64,000 nt of DNA from Vicinamibacterales bacterium (GTDB lineage: Bacteria > Acidobacteriota > Vicinamibacteria > Vicinamibacterales > UBA8438), in assembly GCA_029940535.1 (NCBI GenBank), contig JAPYUM010000013.1:1-64000 (forward strand), read 5' to 3'. Under the pieces are notes generated by a model that had not been told where the DNA came from, searched no databases, and saw only the letters and a program-made list of their open reading frames with translations. The translations under genes and the position numbers were made by a program. This document shows, one piece after another, positions 43,042-49,480 of the stretch (position 1 is its first letter; every line of letters begins with the position of its first letter).

Positions 43042-43070
43042 TTGACACGTTGTCGGCCCCGCCGTAGAGT
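43042..43070 (+). promoter_or_regulatory. Candidate sigma70-type promoter of the secreted-protein cluster
   Basis: TTGACA, a 17-nt spacer (CGTTGTCGGCCCCGCCG) and TAGAGT. The -35 is perfect and the -10 matches 4 of 6 positions. It lies just after the pepF stop and about 47 nt before the ATG of the cytochrome c gene. Confidence 0.5.
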
Positions 43071-43116
43071 GGGGCCCTCGGGTGAAGTTCGGCTCTTCTG
43101 AACGAGGACCTAGCGT

Positions 43117-44595
43117 ATGAGGATCTGCATCTCCCTGTTGGCGGCAACGTTGGTGCTCTCGGGAGGAACCGCGCGGGCGGGGCAGGCGGATGCGGCTCCG
43201 ACGTTCGCCAAGGACGTCGCGCCGATCCTGTATGAGAACTGCGTGACCTGCCATCGGCCGAACAACATCGCCCCAATGTCGCTCTTCGAGTACACCGACG
43301 CGCGTCCCTGGGCGCGTTCCATCAAAGACCTGGTCGTCGCGCGGGAAATGCCGCCGTGGCCGGCCGACCCGAAGAACAGCCTCGAGTTTCGCAACGAGCG
43401 CTATCTGGAGCAAGCCGACATCGACACGATTGCGGCGTGGGTGGATGCGGGGGCCCCCAAGGGAAATGACGCCGACATGCCGGTGAAGCCCGATTTCCCC
43501 GCGGGGTGGACCTACGAGGGGGGGGAACCGGACTACGTCTTTGACCTGCCGGTCGAGTACACCGTTGCGGCCGAGGGCGAAGAGGACTACATCGACTTCT
43601 ATTCCGCGATGCCGTGGGACGAGGATCGGTTTGCCGAGGTGCTTGAGCTGCGTCCCAGCGACTATCGGGTGGTGCACCATTCCGGGGCCTACACCGTGGA
43701 TCTGCCCTGGGGCACCCAGGTCATCGACGGGGTGCTGCACGACCTCGAGGGCAACTCGCTCCTGCGCGCGCCGTTGCCGAAGCGGCCGGCCCCTGAAGAC
43801 AACGCCGAGAACGACGAGGGTGAGAACACGGGTCGGGTGGCGCAGCGCGTCTTCAACGAAGTGAACCTGCCTGGCTCGAGCAAGTTGCTGTCCTATGTGC
43901 CGGGTCGAGGCGTCGAACGACATCGCCCCGGCACCGGGAAGCGGTTGGCGGTCGACAAGTGGATCCGCTGGACCATGCACTACAACCCGATCGGTGTGGA
44001 AGCGACCGAACGGAGCAAGCTCGGCATCTGGTTCAATACGGAGCCGGTCACGCATGAGGTGCTGACCCGCCAGGCTGGCAACGCGTTTCCGACCGATCCG
44101 TTTGGCAACGACATCTATATCGTGCAGGGCGAGGAAGTGAAGCCGACAACGGATCCTGAGACCGGGCGCGTCCGCCGCGGCCGGATTCCGAACATTCCGC
44201 CCTATGAGGATGATTGGAAGATCACCGGGATCACGCCGATCACCGAACCGATTACGCTGTATGGCCTGTCTCCCCACATGCACCTGCGGGGGAAGAGTCT
44301 GCGATGGGTGGTGACCTACCCCGACGGCCGCGAGGAGACGATTCTCGACGTGCCGAAGTTCGATTTCAACTGGCAGATCCACTATGAACTGGCCGAGCCG
44401 CTCCGTCTGCCGGCGGGCAGTAAGATTAGCGGCATCGGGGTCTACGACAATTCGCTGGGCAATCGCTGGAATCCTGGGCCACACCTCCAGGTCTACTGGG
44501 GCCAGCAAAGCTGGGACGAGATGTATCAGGCCTTCACTGAATACACGATCGAGAGCCAGGATCTGACCAAGCAGCCGAGCACCAACGACGACTAG
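43117..44595 (+). CDS. Secreted c-type cytochrome fused to a copper type II monooxygenase-like domain
   Basis: The 492-aa protein has a signal peptide (RICISLLAATLVLSGGTARAG) and one c-type haem motif, CVTCH (near 42-46), inside FAKDVAPILYENCVTCHRPNNIAPMSL. The C-terminal two thirds resemble the PHM/DBM copper monooxygenase fold, with candidate copper ligands in VVHHSGAY and SPHMHLRGKS (His 387 and 389). Related proteins are common in Acidobacteriota and Planctomycetes; a substrate has not been assigned. It is led by a good promoter and heads a run of secreted proteins. Confidence 0.82.
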   Translation: MRICISLLAATLVLSGGTARAGQADAAPTFAKDVAPILYENCVTCHRPNNIAPMSLFEYTDARPWARSIKDLVVAREMPPWPADPKNSLEFRNERYLEQADIDTIAAWVDAGAPKGNDADMPVKPDFPAGWTYEGGEPDYVFDLPVEYTVAAEGEEDYIDFYSAMPWDEDRFAEVLELRPSDYRVVHHSGAYTVDLPWGTQVIDGVLHDLEGNSLLRAPLPKRPAPEDNAENDEGENTGRVAQRVFNEVNLPGSSKLLSYVPGRGVERHRPGTGKRLAVDKWIRWTMHYNPIGVEATERSKLGIWFNTEPVTHEVLTRQAGNAFPTDPFGNDIYIVQGEEVKPTTDPETGRVRRGRIPNIPPYEDDWKITGITPITEPITLYGLSPHMHLRGKSLRWVVTYPDGREETILDVPKFDFNWQIHYELAEPLRLPAGSKISGIGVYDNSLGNRWNPGPHLQVYWGQQSWDEMYQAFTEYTIESQDLTKQPSTNDD

Positions 44596-44656
44596 CGCGT
44601 CGGGCACACCCTGCCGGCGTCACCACCACACCGTCATGACCCGCCTGGAGGATCGT

Positions 44657-45295
44657 GTGACACCTGGCCGGACGTTGTTGCGTGTGGCGACCTGGGTCGT
44701 GATGGGCGCCCTGCTCGCACCCGGCACGGCGTTGACCCAGCCGGCCCAACCACGCCCGGAAGGCCAGATCCCAGACCGTGGCCGTCCCACGGAAAGCGGC
44801 GACGAGATTCCCCTCTTCGACTACGACGCGTACTTTCCGGGCACCTGGGAGTTCGAGTGGCGCGTTCCCGAGAGCCCGCTTGGTGCCGGCGGCACGATTG
44901 AAGGGACCGAGGTGTTCGAGCCGGGGCAGGGCGGGCGTTACTACACCAGCCGCATCGTCGCTCGGGGCCCGGATGGCGAGTTTACCGCCGACTCGCGCAT
45001 CATCTACCTCGCTGAACAGAAGACGTTCAGCCGGTACGAAGTCGATAGCCGAGGCTTCGAGCTGTTCAAGGCCGGTCACATCGGCGGTGATCTCGGCGGC
45101 TTCTACACCCTGCACTACGAGACGCCGCCGTTCGACAGGAACGGCCAGCAGGTGCAGCTCCGGATGACGACGCGATTGGTGTCACCGGTGAACTACCGTG
45201 TCGAGTCCCGCATCGCGGTCGATGGGGGGCCGTTCACCAACTTTGGCACCGGCTGGTGGACCAAGAACGTCCCCGGTGTGACCACACCCCGGTAG
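44657..45295 (+). CDS. Secreted hypothetical protein
   Basis: The GTG at 44657 has GGAGG exactly 5 nt upstream and starts a signal peptide (TPGRTLLRVATWVVMGALLAPGTALTQ). The track ATG 7 codons earlier has no Shine-Dalgarno. The mature part, about 180 aa, looks like a beta-barrel or calycin-type domain (YDAYFPGTWEFEWRVPESPLGAGGTIEGTEVFEP; RMTTRLVSPVNYRVESRIAVDGGPF), similar in style to DUF1579-like proteins. No firm family. It probably acts in the periplasm with its cluster neighbours. Confidence 0.75.
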   Translation: MTPGRTLLRVATWVVMGALLAPGTALTQPAQPRPEGQIPDRGRPTESGDEIPLFDYDAYFPGTWEFEWRVPESPLGAGGTIEGTEVFEPGQGGRYYTSRIVARGPDGEFTADSRIIYLAEQKTFSRYEVDSRGFELFKAGHIGGDLGGFYTLHYETPPFDRNGQQVQLRMTTRLVSPVNYRVESRIAVDGGPFTNFGTGWWTKNVPGVTTPR

Positions 45296-45301
45296 GCCAC
45301 C

Positions 45302-45682
45302 ATGACGAGCATGTCCACCACGGCGCCGGCGCTCATGCTTGTTCTCGCGACCTTGGTGCTGGCGGGCACCTCCCCCGTCCTGACGGCTCAGACGATGCCG
45401 GTGGTGATGACGGTGGGGTGCGTGGAGATGGACGGTCGCGATGGCGTCCTCCTGACCCGCGCCACCGACCCGACAGCGATTGATGAGCGGGCTCCGGACC
45501 AACCGCCATCCGACGCACCCCTGGGCGCCGAGACGCTCACATTGGTCGGCACGCTCGAGGAATTCGGCGTAGCGAACCACGAGGGTCACAAAGTGTGGGT
45601 CAAGGGGCTGCTCAATCCAGCCGCGCCACATCCTCTGCTGAATCTCACCTCGATCACGCACCTGTCTCCGTCCTGCGACTAA
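45302..45682 (+). CDS. Small secreted hypothetical protein
   Basis: The 126-aa protein has a clear signal peptide (APALMLVLATLVLAGTSPVLTAQT). The mature domain is about 95 aa, with VGCVEMDGRDGVLLTRATDP and ETLTLVGTLEEFGVANHEGHKVWVKGLLNP. The pattern recalls small secreted OB-like domains in which a strand ending GHKVxVxG(x)L follows LxGxLxx. It starts 6 nt after the preceding stop. Two cysteines (TVGCVE and the terminal SPSCD) could form a disulfide. Confidence 0.72.
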   Translation: MTSMSTTAPALMLVLATLVLAGTSPVLTAQTMPVVMTVGCVEMDGRDGVLLTRATDPTAIDERAPDQPPSDAPLGAETLTLVGTLEEFGVANHEGHKVWVKGLLNPAAPHPLLNLTSITHLSPSCD

Positions 45683-45708
45683 GCAGCCTGTTGCGGCCAG
45701 GGGGACCT

Positions 45709-47949
45709 ATGGAATGTGAGTTGGCTTCGCACGCTCGTCCAGGGCGGCGCGTCGTGGGTGGCGCGCTCGTGTTGCTGCTCAGCGGATGCGTCGACCAAGG
45801 CGTCGTCCCGGGGACGCTCGATGTGTCCACGGTGCCGACACCGGCTCACCTTGTGAGCGGTGGCGACGCCCTGGTTCGGGTCCTCGTGCCAGAGGGCGTG
45901 GACCCAAACGACGCGGAAGTGCGACTCGCCGGCCGCGACGTCACCCAGATGTTTCGGGAGCTGCCGCCTGACCGGTTGCAGAGATCGCAGCGGATGCTGC
46001 TCGGCCTGGTGACTGGGCTTGCGGAGGGCGGGAACGACCTGCACGTGCGGCTCGGTTCGGCCGAGGCCGCGCTGACCCTGACCAACTACCCCATTCACGG
46101 GCCGATTTTCTCCGGCGAGCATCTCGACCCCTATTTCTGTCTCGGCGACCTGGCTTCTGGTGCCTCCGGCGAGGCCCGGCGGTTCGCGATCGGCAATGGG
46201 GATGTCCTGGAGGGCACGTCGCAACTGGAGCACTGCGCGCTCGAGACGCGCATCGACGTCGTCTACCGTACGACCGGCGAAGAGCCGCGTTTTGCACCGT
46301 GGCCCGCCGGCGGGGTCACGCCGACCGATATGGCCGATGCGACGACCACCGAGGGGCAGACCGTGCCCTATGTCGTACGGCTCGAGACCGGCACCATCAA
46401 CCGCGCCATCTATCAGACCGCGGCGCTGGTCGACCCGGACGCGCCGGCCCCGACCCCGTGGGCGTCGTCGCCTGGGTGGAACGGTCGACTGGTCTACACC
46501 TACGGCGGCGGGTGCGAGGCCGGCTTCTTCCAGGGCACCAGTACCGGGGGCGTGTTGCGCGACAACATGCTCTCGCTGGGCTACGGGGTGGCGTCGTCGA
46601 CGTTGAACGTCAACGCCCAGGGCGGATGCAACGACGTGCTGTCGGCCGAGACGACCATGATGGTCAAAGAGCGCTTCGCCGAGGTGTACGGCCCCCCCCT
46701 GCACACGATCGGCTGGGGCGGCTCTGGTGGCGCCATGCAGCAGTTGCTCATTGCCGGCGCCTACCCGGGTATCCTCGACGGTATTCTGCCGACGCTGACG
46801 TTTCCCGACGCGATCTCGTATTTCATCGATACCGCCGAGTGCCGGTTGCCGCTCCGGCGGTTTCTCAATGCCCAGGACCCGCCCCTGCCGGATGAGGTGA
46901 AGAACGCCATCGGCGGGTGGGCCGCCTGGGAGGTCTGTGACCGTTCGTTGGGACCCCGGCCGAACCGCATCGGGCCGGATGACTGTCCGGGGCCGATACC
47001 GGCCGAAGCGCGGTATCACCCGGTCGACAACCCGGACGGGGTCCGGTGCTCCATCTACGATGGCATGCGCAACGTGTTCGGCACGCGCCCCTACGACGAG
47101 ATCGAGCCGGCGCCCACCCAGCCGTTCGCGCGCAATCCCCAGGACAACATCGGGGTGCAGTACGGGTTGGAAGCGCTCAACGCGGGACTCATCGATACCT
47201 CGCTGTTTCTCGACCTCAACGAACATGCCGGCGGGTGGGACATCGACTTCCGCTGGCGACCCGAGCGGGCCGAGGGTGACGCCGACGCCATCCGGATTGC
47301 CTACGAGACTGGACGCATCACCAGTGGCGGTGGAGGCCTGGCCACCACCCCGATCATCGACGAGCGGAACTATCTGGATCACGTCGCGAATTTTCACGCG
47401 AGCTACTACTCGTTCGTCATGCGCGAACGGCTGATCCGAGACAACGGGCACGCCGACAACTACGTGATTCAGCGCCGGATGGCTCCGTTGTCACGCGCCG
47501 ACGAGAACCTGGCGCTGATGGACGAGTGGCTGGTGGCGATGGCCCTCGACGAGAGCCCGCCGGGGGCGGAGAAGATGGTCCGCGCCAAACCGGCCGCCTT
47601 GCAGGACTCCTGCTGGAGCGACGACGGTTTGGAGATCGTCGAGCCGGCGGTCTTCGATCGAGAGGCGATCTTCGACAACACGAAGGGGCGGTGCAACGAG
47701 CTCTTCCCACCACATGCGGGTGCGCGAATCGTGGCCGGGGGGCCGCTGACCAACGATGTGTTGAAATGTCAGTTGAAGCCGATCGACCCGGCCGACTACG
47801 GAGTGACACTCACCGCCGAGGAGATGGGACAGTTGGAGGCGATCTTCCCGAGGGGTGTCTGTGATTGGTCGAAACCAGGCATGGGTCAGGTGCCCAACAC
47901 ACGAACGTGGTTGTCCTACGGACCGTCTCCCGTGAACCGTTACCAGTAG
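45709..47949 (+). CDS. DUF6351 family lipoprotein, predicted serine hydrolase
   Basis: The ATG at 45709 follows AGGGGGA and gives 746 aa with a lipobox (GGALVLLLSGC). The track start lies inside the previous gene. The sequence fits DUF6351: LVSGGDALVRVLVPEGVDPNDAEVRLAGRDVT, GRLVYTYGGGCEAGFFQG and a nucleophile-elbow-like TIGWGGSGGAMQQLLIAGAYPGILDG (Ser near 337). The many spaced cysteines suggest disulfides. An alpha/beta-hydrolase activity, perhaps esterase, is inferred from the elbow only. Confidence 0.82.
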   Translation: MECELASHARPGRRVVGGALVLLLSGCVDQGVVPGTLDVSTVPTPAHLVSGGDALVRVLVPEGVDPNDAEVRLAGRDVTQMFRELPPDRLQRSQRMLLGLVTGLAEGGNDLHVRLGSAEAALTLTNYPIHGPIFSGEHLDPYFCLGDLASGASGEARRFAIGNGDVLEGTSQLEHCALETRIDVVYRTTGEEPRFAPWPAGGVTPTDMADATTTEGQTVPYVVRLETGTINRAIYQTAALVDPDAPAPTPWASSPGWNGRLVYTYGGGCEAGFFQGTSTGGVLRDNMLSLGYGVASSTLNVNAQGGCNDVLSAETTMMVKERFAEVYGPPLHTIGWGGSGGAMQQLLIAGAYPGILDGILPTLTFPDAISYFIDTAECRLPLRRFLNAQDPPLPDEVKNAIGGWAAWEVCDRSLGPRPNRIGPDDCPGPIPAEARYHPVDNPDGVRCSIYDGMRNVFGTRPYDEIEPAPTQPFARNPQDNIGVQYGLEALNAGLIDTSLFLDLNEHAGGWDIDFRWRPERAEGDADAIRIAYETGRITSGGGGLATTPIIDERNYLDHVANFHASYYSFVMRERLIRDNGHADNYVIQRRMAPLSRADENLALMDEWLVAMALDESPPGAEKMVRAKPAALQDSCWSDDGLEIVEPAVFDREAIFDNTKGRCNELFPPHAGARIVAGGPLTNDVLKCQLKPIDPADYGVTLTAEEMGQLEAIFPRGVCDWSKPGMGQVPNTRTWLSYGPSPVNRYQ

Positions 47950-47997
47950 CGCGCCGGGCCAAGTGCCCCCGGAGCCAGTGAGACCGAGAAACACACG

Positions 47998-48993
47998 ATG
48001 CGACGAACCTTGGGTTGGGCGGCGAGCGTGTGGCTGTGCGCGATCTGGACACCGGCCATCGCGCTGGGGCAGACCGCGGTGGGCGCGTCACCGCGGACGG
48101 CGTGGGGGGCACCCGATCTCGGGGGGCTCTGGGACTTTCGCACCATGACCCCGCTCCAGCGCTCACGCGAGTTGGCCGACACACCGACCTGGACCGTCGA
48201 AGAAGCGACGGCGTATGAGGCGCAGACCCTTGAACGTCGTACCCGAAACCCGTTGGCCCCGAGCAGTGTGCACGCCGCGTGGTGGCTCGACAACGGCACG
48301 GAGTTGACGCGTGATCGCCGCACGTCACTCATCGTTCATCCCCCGGACGGCCGCATTCCCCCGATGACTTCGGAGGCACTCGCCCGACAGGAGGCGCAGG
48401 GGATGGGGCGGCCGGTTCGTCTGCGACAGTCTCGCAATGCATCCGCGCAGGGGCCGGAGGATCTCGGTGTCAGCGATCGCTGTTTGAGCGGATTCAGCAC
48501 CGGTCCTCCGATCACACCCAGTGCCTATAACAATAATCTGATGGTGTTTCAGACTCAGGACCATGTCGTGCTGTTCACCGAGATGGTCCACGAGGCGCGA
48601 ATCGTGCCGCTCTCTGACGGCCCGCGGCTGCCCGACACGATGCGCCAGTGGCTGGGCGATTCCAAGGGACACTGGGACGGGGACTCCCTCGTCATCGAGA
48701 CCACGAACTTCACACACAAGATCGGCAGCTTCAACAGTCTCGGCGTCGCGCTGGGGTCCGGCGACACGTTGCGACTCGTCGAGCGCCTCACGCGCGTCGA
48801 CGACGAGACGCTCCTGTACGAGTTCACCGTCGACGACCCCACGACGTTCATCGACACGTTCACCGCGGTGGTGCCGATGCGACGCTCCGATGCCCCACTC
48901 TACGAGTTCGCCTGCCACGAGGGGAACCGTGGTCTCGAAGGGATTCTTCGTGGGGCGCGGGCTCAGGATAAACAGGTGGGTACCCTCCCGTAG
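47998..48993 (+). CDS. Secreted hypothetical protein of a family common in Acidobacteriota
   Basis: The 331-aa protein has a signal peptide (RTLGWAASVWLCAIWTPAIALGQ). The mature part has the repeated, recognisable blocks PDLGGLWDFRTMTPLQR, SDRCLSGFSTGPP, YNNNLMVFQTQDHVVLFTEMVHEARIVPL and GDSKGHWDGDSLVIETTNFTHK. Proteins with the HWxGDxLVxETTNF pattern are abundant and uncharacterised in soil acidobacteria, often beside TonB receptors and lipoproteins. No catalytic motif is evident. Confidence 0.78.
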   Translation: MRRTLGWAASVWLCAIWTPAIALGQTAVGASPRTAWGAPDLGGLWDFRTMTPLQRSRELADTPTWTVEEATAYEAQTLERRTRNPLAPSSVHAAWWLDNGTELTRDRRTSLIVHPPDGRIPPMTSEALARQEAQGMGRPVRLRQSRNASAQGPEDLGVSDRCLSGFSTGPPITPSAYNNNLMVFQTQDHVVLFTEMVHEARIVPLSDGPRLPDTMRQWLGDSKGHWDGDSLVIETTNFTHKIGSFNSLGVALGSGDTLRLVERLTRVDDETLLYEFTVDDPTTFIDTFTAVVPMRRSDAPLYEFACHEGNRGLEGILRGARAQDKQVGTLP

Positions 48994-49480
48994 GTTGCGG
49001 AATCTAGCCGGTTGCTGGAAAACGATGTGGATGTTCCAGCCCTGGGGCGGCCCCGGTCCGACATGGAGGCGTTCGACCGACTCGAGTGGCCTGTCGGTCT
49101 CGCGTCCCGATGACCGGTTTGCCACAGGCATTCGCTTCCAGTCCAGGAACACGAGACCAAAGCCTTCGACGCTGGGCGGTTCGGGTCGGGAGGGTGTCAC
49201 GAAGACGTCGCACAGGGCGAAGTACTGCGGCAACTCGGCCGCCGTCACTCGGCCGAGGAAGCGCACCTGAGAGGGTCGTATGCCCACTGCGCTGCAGGCA
49301 GCCGCGCGACAGGGCGCACAAAGAGCTCACGACCGTGGGCCGCGACGAAGTATGACCCGATCGCCTACAGTCGACTCGCGTGACTCGGTGCGAAGCGCGG
49401 GCGATTCCTTTCCTCCGTGCGGGTTCGAGTAAGGGCGGTCGATCACGATCTCTCGTCGCGTGGGCCCTGACGCTCGGTCG
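48994..49480. other. Gap with a decayed glycosyltransferase
   Basis: No intact gene. The minus strand carries a recognisable but frame-disrupted piece of a glycosyltransferase (listed separately). From about 49300 to 49480 nothing else was recognised. Confidence 0.6.
48995..49300 (-). pseudogene. C-terminal remnant of a GT4-type glycosyltransferase
   Basis: One minus-strand frame reads VGIRPSQVRFLGRVTAAELPQYFALCDVFVTPSR..VEGFGLVFLDW, the usual donor-binding half of a family-4 glycosyltransferase. The expected continuation, EANACGKPVIGTRD, is present but in another frame, so a frameshift lies near 49150. Downstream similarity fades, and a stop codon lies about 14 codons upstream of the similarity in its frame. 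The N-terminal acceptor domain is missing. The 320-aa ORF covering it (48325-49287) continues as a shadow of the plus-strand gene. Confidence 0.65.

Follow-up and report, generated by a model that had tools for sequence, protein, structure and literature searches.

A conserved three-gene module for a putative heme-linked, PHM-type copper monooxygenase in Vicinamibacterales (Acidobacteriota)

The DNA analysed here (the window, 64,000 nucleotides) belongs to a 4.83 Mb Vicinamibacterales (Acidobacteriota) MAG, G000. The closest relatives with names are MAGs of Acidobacteria and Vicinamibacterales, and going by isolate names many of these are marine. Judging from sequence comparison, the conserved unit of the locus is a set of three genes at 43042-45682 rather than the five that run together there. 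We think it probable that this trio forms an operon encoding a PHM-type copper monooxygenase (CuMO) that is periplasmic and heme-linked, together with two exported accessory proteins, and that a PAL-like lyase was the system's partner in the ancestral state.

The first-pass annotation of this DNA had described five consecutive genes in one direction behind a good promoter. The five ORFs lie on the + strand at 43117-48993 with gaps of 6-48 bp, and a codon-usage gene caller picked the same five. The features of the locus are the following:

43042..43070, + strand: sigma-70-like promoter of the trio, TTGACA-17-TAGAGT, top-scoring site of the region in the scan
43117..44595, + strand: CuMO (ORF 1), with signal peptide, c-type cytochrome domain and PHM-like dicopper monooxygenase
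44636..45295, + strand: secreted protein (ORF 2), DUF1579-like by Pfam, calycin-type family, conserved CuMO partner according to synteny and co-localisation
45302..45682, + strand: s126 (ORF 3), small 126-aa secreted protein with two invariant cysteines, conserved partner
45683..49411, no strand: variable segment, missing from the closest relative
45709..47949 (start may be 45754), + strand: DUF6351 tannase-like lipoprotein (ORF 4), genome-specific neighbour outside the conserved module
47998..48993, + strand: HWxGDxLVxETTNF (HWxGD) secreted protein (ORF 5), calycin-like barrel in the model, outside the conserved module
49100..49290, - strand: glycosyltransferase-4 remnant within the variable segment, truncated and with broken frame (Glyco_trans_1_4, E 9e-6 over 44 aa only)

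Upstream of CuMO are genes for an aconitase (named by sequence reading) and an M3 oligopeptidase (matched by profile search), and 3' of the ORFs, on the opposite strand, are genes for a DcuC-type carrier, an MFS carrier and an aldehyde dehydrogenase, also named by sequence reading. A search of NCBIfam with the ORFs found no families.

Concerning the conservation of the locus, the order CuMO, DUF1579-like, s126 is kept in 10 syntenic relatives with 62-95% identity, where the DUF6351 and HWxGD genes are missing. The "cluster" of the first-pass annotation therefore stands as adjacency in the window genome, and only its first three genes are present in relatives. L022, L024 and L028 have the trio too, with s126 in a shifted position. 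A second, divergent clade of CuMO proteins, about 38% identical, is encoded at chromosomal sites unrelated to this one and is accompanied by both partners in the order CuMO-s126-DUF1579. Among 41 strong matches to the module's DUF1579-like protein across 40 genomes, s126 was within 3 kb in 35 and CuMO within 3.5 kb in 30, and 38 of the 45 s126 matches in 40 genomes were near a DUF1579 gene. Moreover, s126 is adjacent to CuMO in other families of the order (L236, L239-L241, L243, L248), both partners form a single fused protein in G011, and s126 was present in 15 of 297 genomes sampled across the phylum, 13 of which belong to the same order.

The association is also reflected in the phylogeny. 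Of the 63 CuMO proteins placed on a tree, nearly all that have the trio partners fall within one clade with 100/100 support, and nearly all that are accompanied by a PKD-like protein fall within another 100/100 clade. Partner labels change 9 times on this tree versus 31.6 in shuffles, a clustering far beyond the shuffled one. In this way DUF1579-like and s126, two orphan families, gain a first functional context from their linkage to CuMO.

Peptidylglycine alpha-hydroxylating monooxygenase (PHM) and dopamine beta-hydroxylase (DBH) are textbook examples of enzymes that make hormones and neurotransmitters in animals. One recent survey (PMC8812541) considers the PHM family to be eukaryotic. A search with single proteins against the PDB (phmmer) gave nothing useful for CuMO, DUF6351 or HWxGD, so profiles were required for CuMO. 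The CuMO matches in Pfam were below threshold (Cytochrome_CBB3, E 0.013; Cu2_monoox_C, E 0.02), and the family profile matched PHM in the PDB (E 2.5e-4) with the HH, H and HxH copper motifs in register. H187, H188 and H288 align with H107 (mutated in that PDB entry), H108 and H172 of PHM and make up the putative CuH set, which is present in 49-50 of 50 sequences. The candidate CuM set consists of H387 and H389 (49/50), assigned by the alignment of HxH with PHM, and M469 (48/50), assigned by its conserved DEM context. The heme site C42-x-x-C45-H46 was found in all 48 sequences that cover these positions, and M78 (49/50) and M54 (47/50) are candidate distal heme ligands. Overall, the copper and heme ligands are kept in 47-50 of 50 sequences, with at most one substitution each.

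The AlphaFold (AF2) model of CuMO (pLDDT 83) consists of a helical cytochrome domain and, after it, two jelly-roll domains, and PHM and DBH were its top Foldseek matches in the PDB (E 1e-13, TM up to 0.67 on the target). Hence, the cytochrome c/copper monooxygenase-like fusion read at first pass is borne out by the CxxCH motif, the six copper ligands and the fold of the model. A copper site lacking the needed ligands had been named as what would speak against that reading, and none of the six PHM ligands is missing in the family. CuMO differs from PHM and DBH in its N-terminal c-type cytochrome fusion, in its bacterial origin, in having about 27 paralogous loci in one genome and in the absence of the PHM disulfides, since it has no cysteines besides those of CxxCH and of the export signal peptide (read off the sequence). 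The tethered heme c suggests that the electron donor of CuMO is other than ascorbate. It seems that bacteria have a large PHM-type branch in which the copper site is complete, a covalent heme stands in for ascorbate and a PAL-like lyase is linked, and the heme-tethered enzyme could serve as a natural model for studying how electrons get to two distant coppers.

The strongest hint at the chemistry comes from this lyase. In L022 and L028, two nearly identical MAGs that were counted as one lineage, the operon reads CuMO-DUF1579-PAL-s126. Its CuMO is the ortholog of the window CuMO (about 70% identity), and the PAL gene, 13 bp behind DUF1579, encodes a 349-aa secreted NHL protein. The best PDB match of the L022 protein was rat PAL (3fvz, E 5.6e-36), with agreement at all six positions of the active site (R, H, Y, H, R, H); we take their numbering to be R533, H585, Y654, H690, R706 and H786. 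In two genomes of other taxonomic families, a PAL ortholog is located less than 2 kb from CuMO, together with s126 and DUF1579 (G038), and 1.2 kb from CuMO (G035), and in G008, G015, G016 and G021 it lies away from CuMO. The system thus resembles peptidylglycine alpha-amidating monooxygenase (PAM), which joins PHM and PAL (peptidyl-hydroxyglycine-lyase), in that a PAL-like lyase sits within the operon of one related lineage and close to CuMO in two others, and differs from it in the separate genes, the two extra partner proteins and a window locus that has no PAL-like gene. The sequence association of PHM and PAL hints at hydroxylation beside a heteroatom followed by cleavage.

PHM and PAL act on glycine-extended peptides. 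The locus could accordingly be read as a true bacterial amidating system, in which CuMO and PAL amidate or degrade such peptides with the help of the secreted M3 oligopeptidase encoded upstream, a reading that fits the PHM fold and ligands, the PAL gene within the L022/L028 operon and the M3 peptidase gene found before CuMO in nine loci. Nevertheless, we regard it as quite unlikely. S385, Q471 and F473 of CuMO are at the positions of R240, N316 and Y318 of PHM, which we take to be the residues holding the peptide carboxylate, and in the alignment these anchors are not conserved and vary across the CuMO family, which makes a peptidylglycine an improbable substrate. Moreover, the other CuMO clade does not retain the M3 neighbour, and CuMO has a conserved promoter of its own after the M3 gene. 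In a six-species alignment, ATTGACAC and TAnAGTG are invariant at fixed spacing and the rest of the intergenic region varies, which indicates from conservation that the promoter at 43042-43070, already called good at first pass and the best of the region, is real and sets CuMO apart from the preceding gene.

For the PHM-type monooxygenase that we favour, electrons would come from a soluble carrier or the respiratory chain and reach the CuH site through the c-type cytochrome domain, which would replace ascorbate. CuM would activate O2, and a substrate C-H next to a heteroatom (N or O) would be hydroxylated. The DUF1579-like barrel and s126 could bind or deliver the substrate or a cofactor, or help folding. 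In the ancestral state, the PAL-like lyase would cleave the hydroxylated product, resulting in oxidative N- or O-dealkylation, and in the window lineage the lyase gene would no longer be at the locus. More tentatively, Vicinamibacterales could run a periplasmic split-PAM chemistry, with a heme c-fed PHM-type hydroxylase, two accessory proteins and a PAL-like lyase in dozens of paralogs with varied partners, oxidising N- or O-alkylated dissolved organic matter. The bacterial PHM-type branch also offers a candidate route for organic-matter oxidation by abundant uncultured marine Acidobacteriota.

Regarding the two partner proteins, ORF 2 matches DUF1579 (PF07617) over most of its length with E 8e-4 and 19.7 bits, under the gathering cut-off of 25.2, and is treated here as DUF1579-like; its subfamily is the one tied to s126 and CuMO. 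s126 belongs to no Pfam family, and its C40 and C125 are invariant. Divergent s126/DUF1579 pairs without CuMO also exist, in L018 (15888-17319, 3 kb away from a complete trio) and in G008, G012, G015, G019, G021 and G024, which implies that the role of both proteins is not tied to CuMO only. These pairs, together with the conserved H160 of the DUF1579-like protein and a faint match of the DUF1579-s126 fusion to the THAP4 heme-binding barrel (E 0.007), would fit a different function, in which CuMO is a non-oxygenase copper redox or copper/heme-handling protein (storage, delivery, NO or peroxide) and DUF1579 its heme-binding barrel partner. This seems unlikely, given that CuMO keeps the PHM fold and the complete two-copper ligand set including the CuM methionine, and that the linked lyase with an intact PAL active site points to PHM chemistry.

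The fourth and fifth genes have a different distribution from the monooxygenase trio. ORF 4 is a full-length member of the DUF6351 tannase-like family, as proposed at first pass (PF19878, E 4.7e-227, 756 bits, profile positions 2-654 of 655), with a lipobox LSGC read off the sequence. Neither this gene nor that of HWxGD was found at this place in any syntenic relative, and only the window genome has both here. The DNA alignment with the closest relative (L013, CuMO 95% identical) stops at 45681 and restarts at 49412, which places both genes within a variable segment of about 3.7 kb. In other relatives, the same spot has unrelated genes or none. The 78% relatives of DUF6351 sit elsewhere, and the closest relatives of both proteins are in other gene contexts.

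An insertion into the window is only one possible origin of this segment, because L013 keeps a short stretch like the start of DUF6351 (AGGGGGACnTATGGAA) after s126. The segment may therefore predate the species split, and it may have been lost in the sister L013 rather than gained in the window lineage. A search for transposon-like repeats at its ends found just weak, chance-like ones. Whether gained or lost, the segment is not part of the conserved module, and DUF6351 is a neighbour of the module and not a component.

The first-pass annotation had joined oxygenase and hydrolase in one breakdown route, and the five genes could indeed be imagined as a single pathway for an extracellular compound, which the oxygenase would open and whose breakdown would be completed by the DUF6351 hydrolase and HWxGD. 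The common strand, the short gaps and the lack of any + strand terminator between the five ORFs in a scan of the region make co-transcription possible in the window genome. The DUF6351-like stretch in L013 suggests that the segment may be old, and in G008, G015 and G021 a distant DUF6351 gene is located 5-9 kb away from another CuMO. Nevertheless, such a pathway appears very improbable. Comparison does not favour the joined functions, since both genes are missing in every syntenic relative, unrelated genes take the same spot in others, the nearest relatives of both are elsewhere and HWxGD lies near CuMO as often as expected by chance. A co-occurrence check of the five families, as had been proposed, gave a positive result for CuMO, DUF1579-like and s126 and a negative one for the other two, and it is a PAL-like lyase, not a serine hydrolase, that recurs beside the oxygenase. 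DUF6351 and HWxGD would then be unlinked passengers of the variable segment.

ORF 5 carries the motif HWDGDSLVIETTNF, in agreement with the HWxGDxLVxETTNF reading, and had no match in Pfam or NCBIfam, nor in the PDB by phmmer or profile. The C-terminal half of its AF2 model is similar to FABP-type barrels (FABP/CRBP fold; Foldseek E 7e-4, target TM 0.48), which suggests with weak confidence that HWxGD is a calycin, and its long N-terminal part has no known fold. The family is hyper-expanded, with about 100 paralogous loci in the 4.8 Mb genome G000. Each genome of this taxonomic family gave 54-66 scored matches, and most of the order's other families have only a few or none. In G000, HWxGD was within 3 kb of CuMO in 4 of 27 cases (P 0.30), and the values at 5, 7.5 and 10 kb were P 0.41, 0.046 and 0.16. 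As four distances were tried, the P of 0.046 is not significant, and the closeness of HWxGD to CuMO is no greater than chance.

A locus with two HWxGD genes and DUF6152 before CuMO (C159) was considered as a second cluster and discarded because these genes are kept only in some relatives (present in L136, L176, L177 and L182; not in L179-L181 and L185-L187). Tandem HWxGD pairs followed by a DUF6152 gene are common (L136 6984-9254, L171, L174, L175). The nearest kin of the window HWxGD adjoin genes for a STAS-domain protein, a UbiD decarboxylase and another CuMO (L154 10350-13998, L166, L167), and in L154 an HWxGD gene is inserted into this same gene string.

Finally, a literature search, thin on subscription journals, found no paper on the cytochrome c-PHM fusion, the function of DUF6351 or these expansions. 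The approximately 27 cytochrome c-PHM fusion loci of G000 (L136-L161) belong mostly to a second subfamily, whose partner is a 290-aa secreted PKD-like protein, and the pairing of CuMO with the PKD-like protein was also observed in a Gemmatimonadota MAG (L037).
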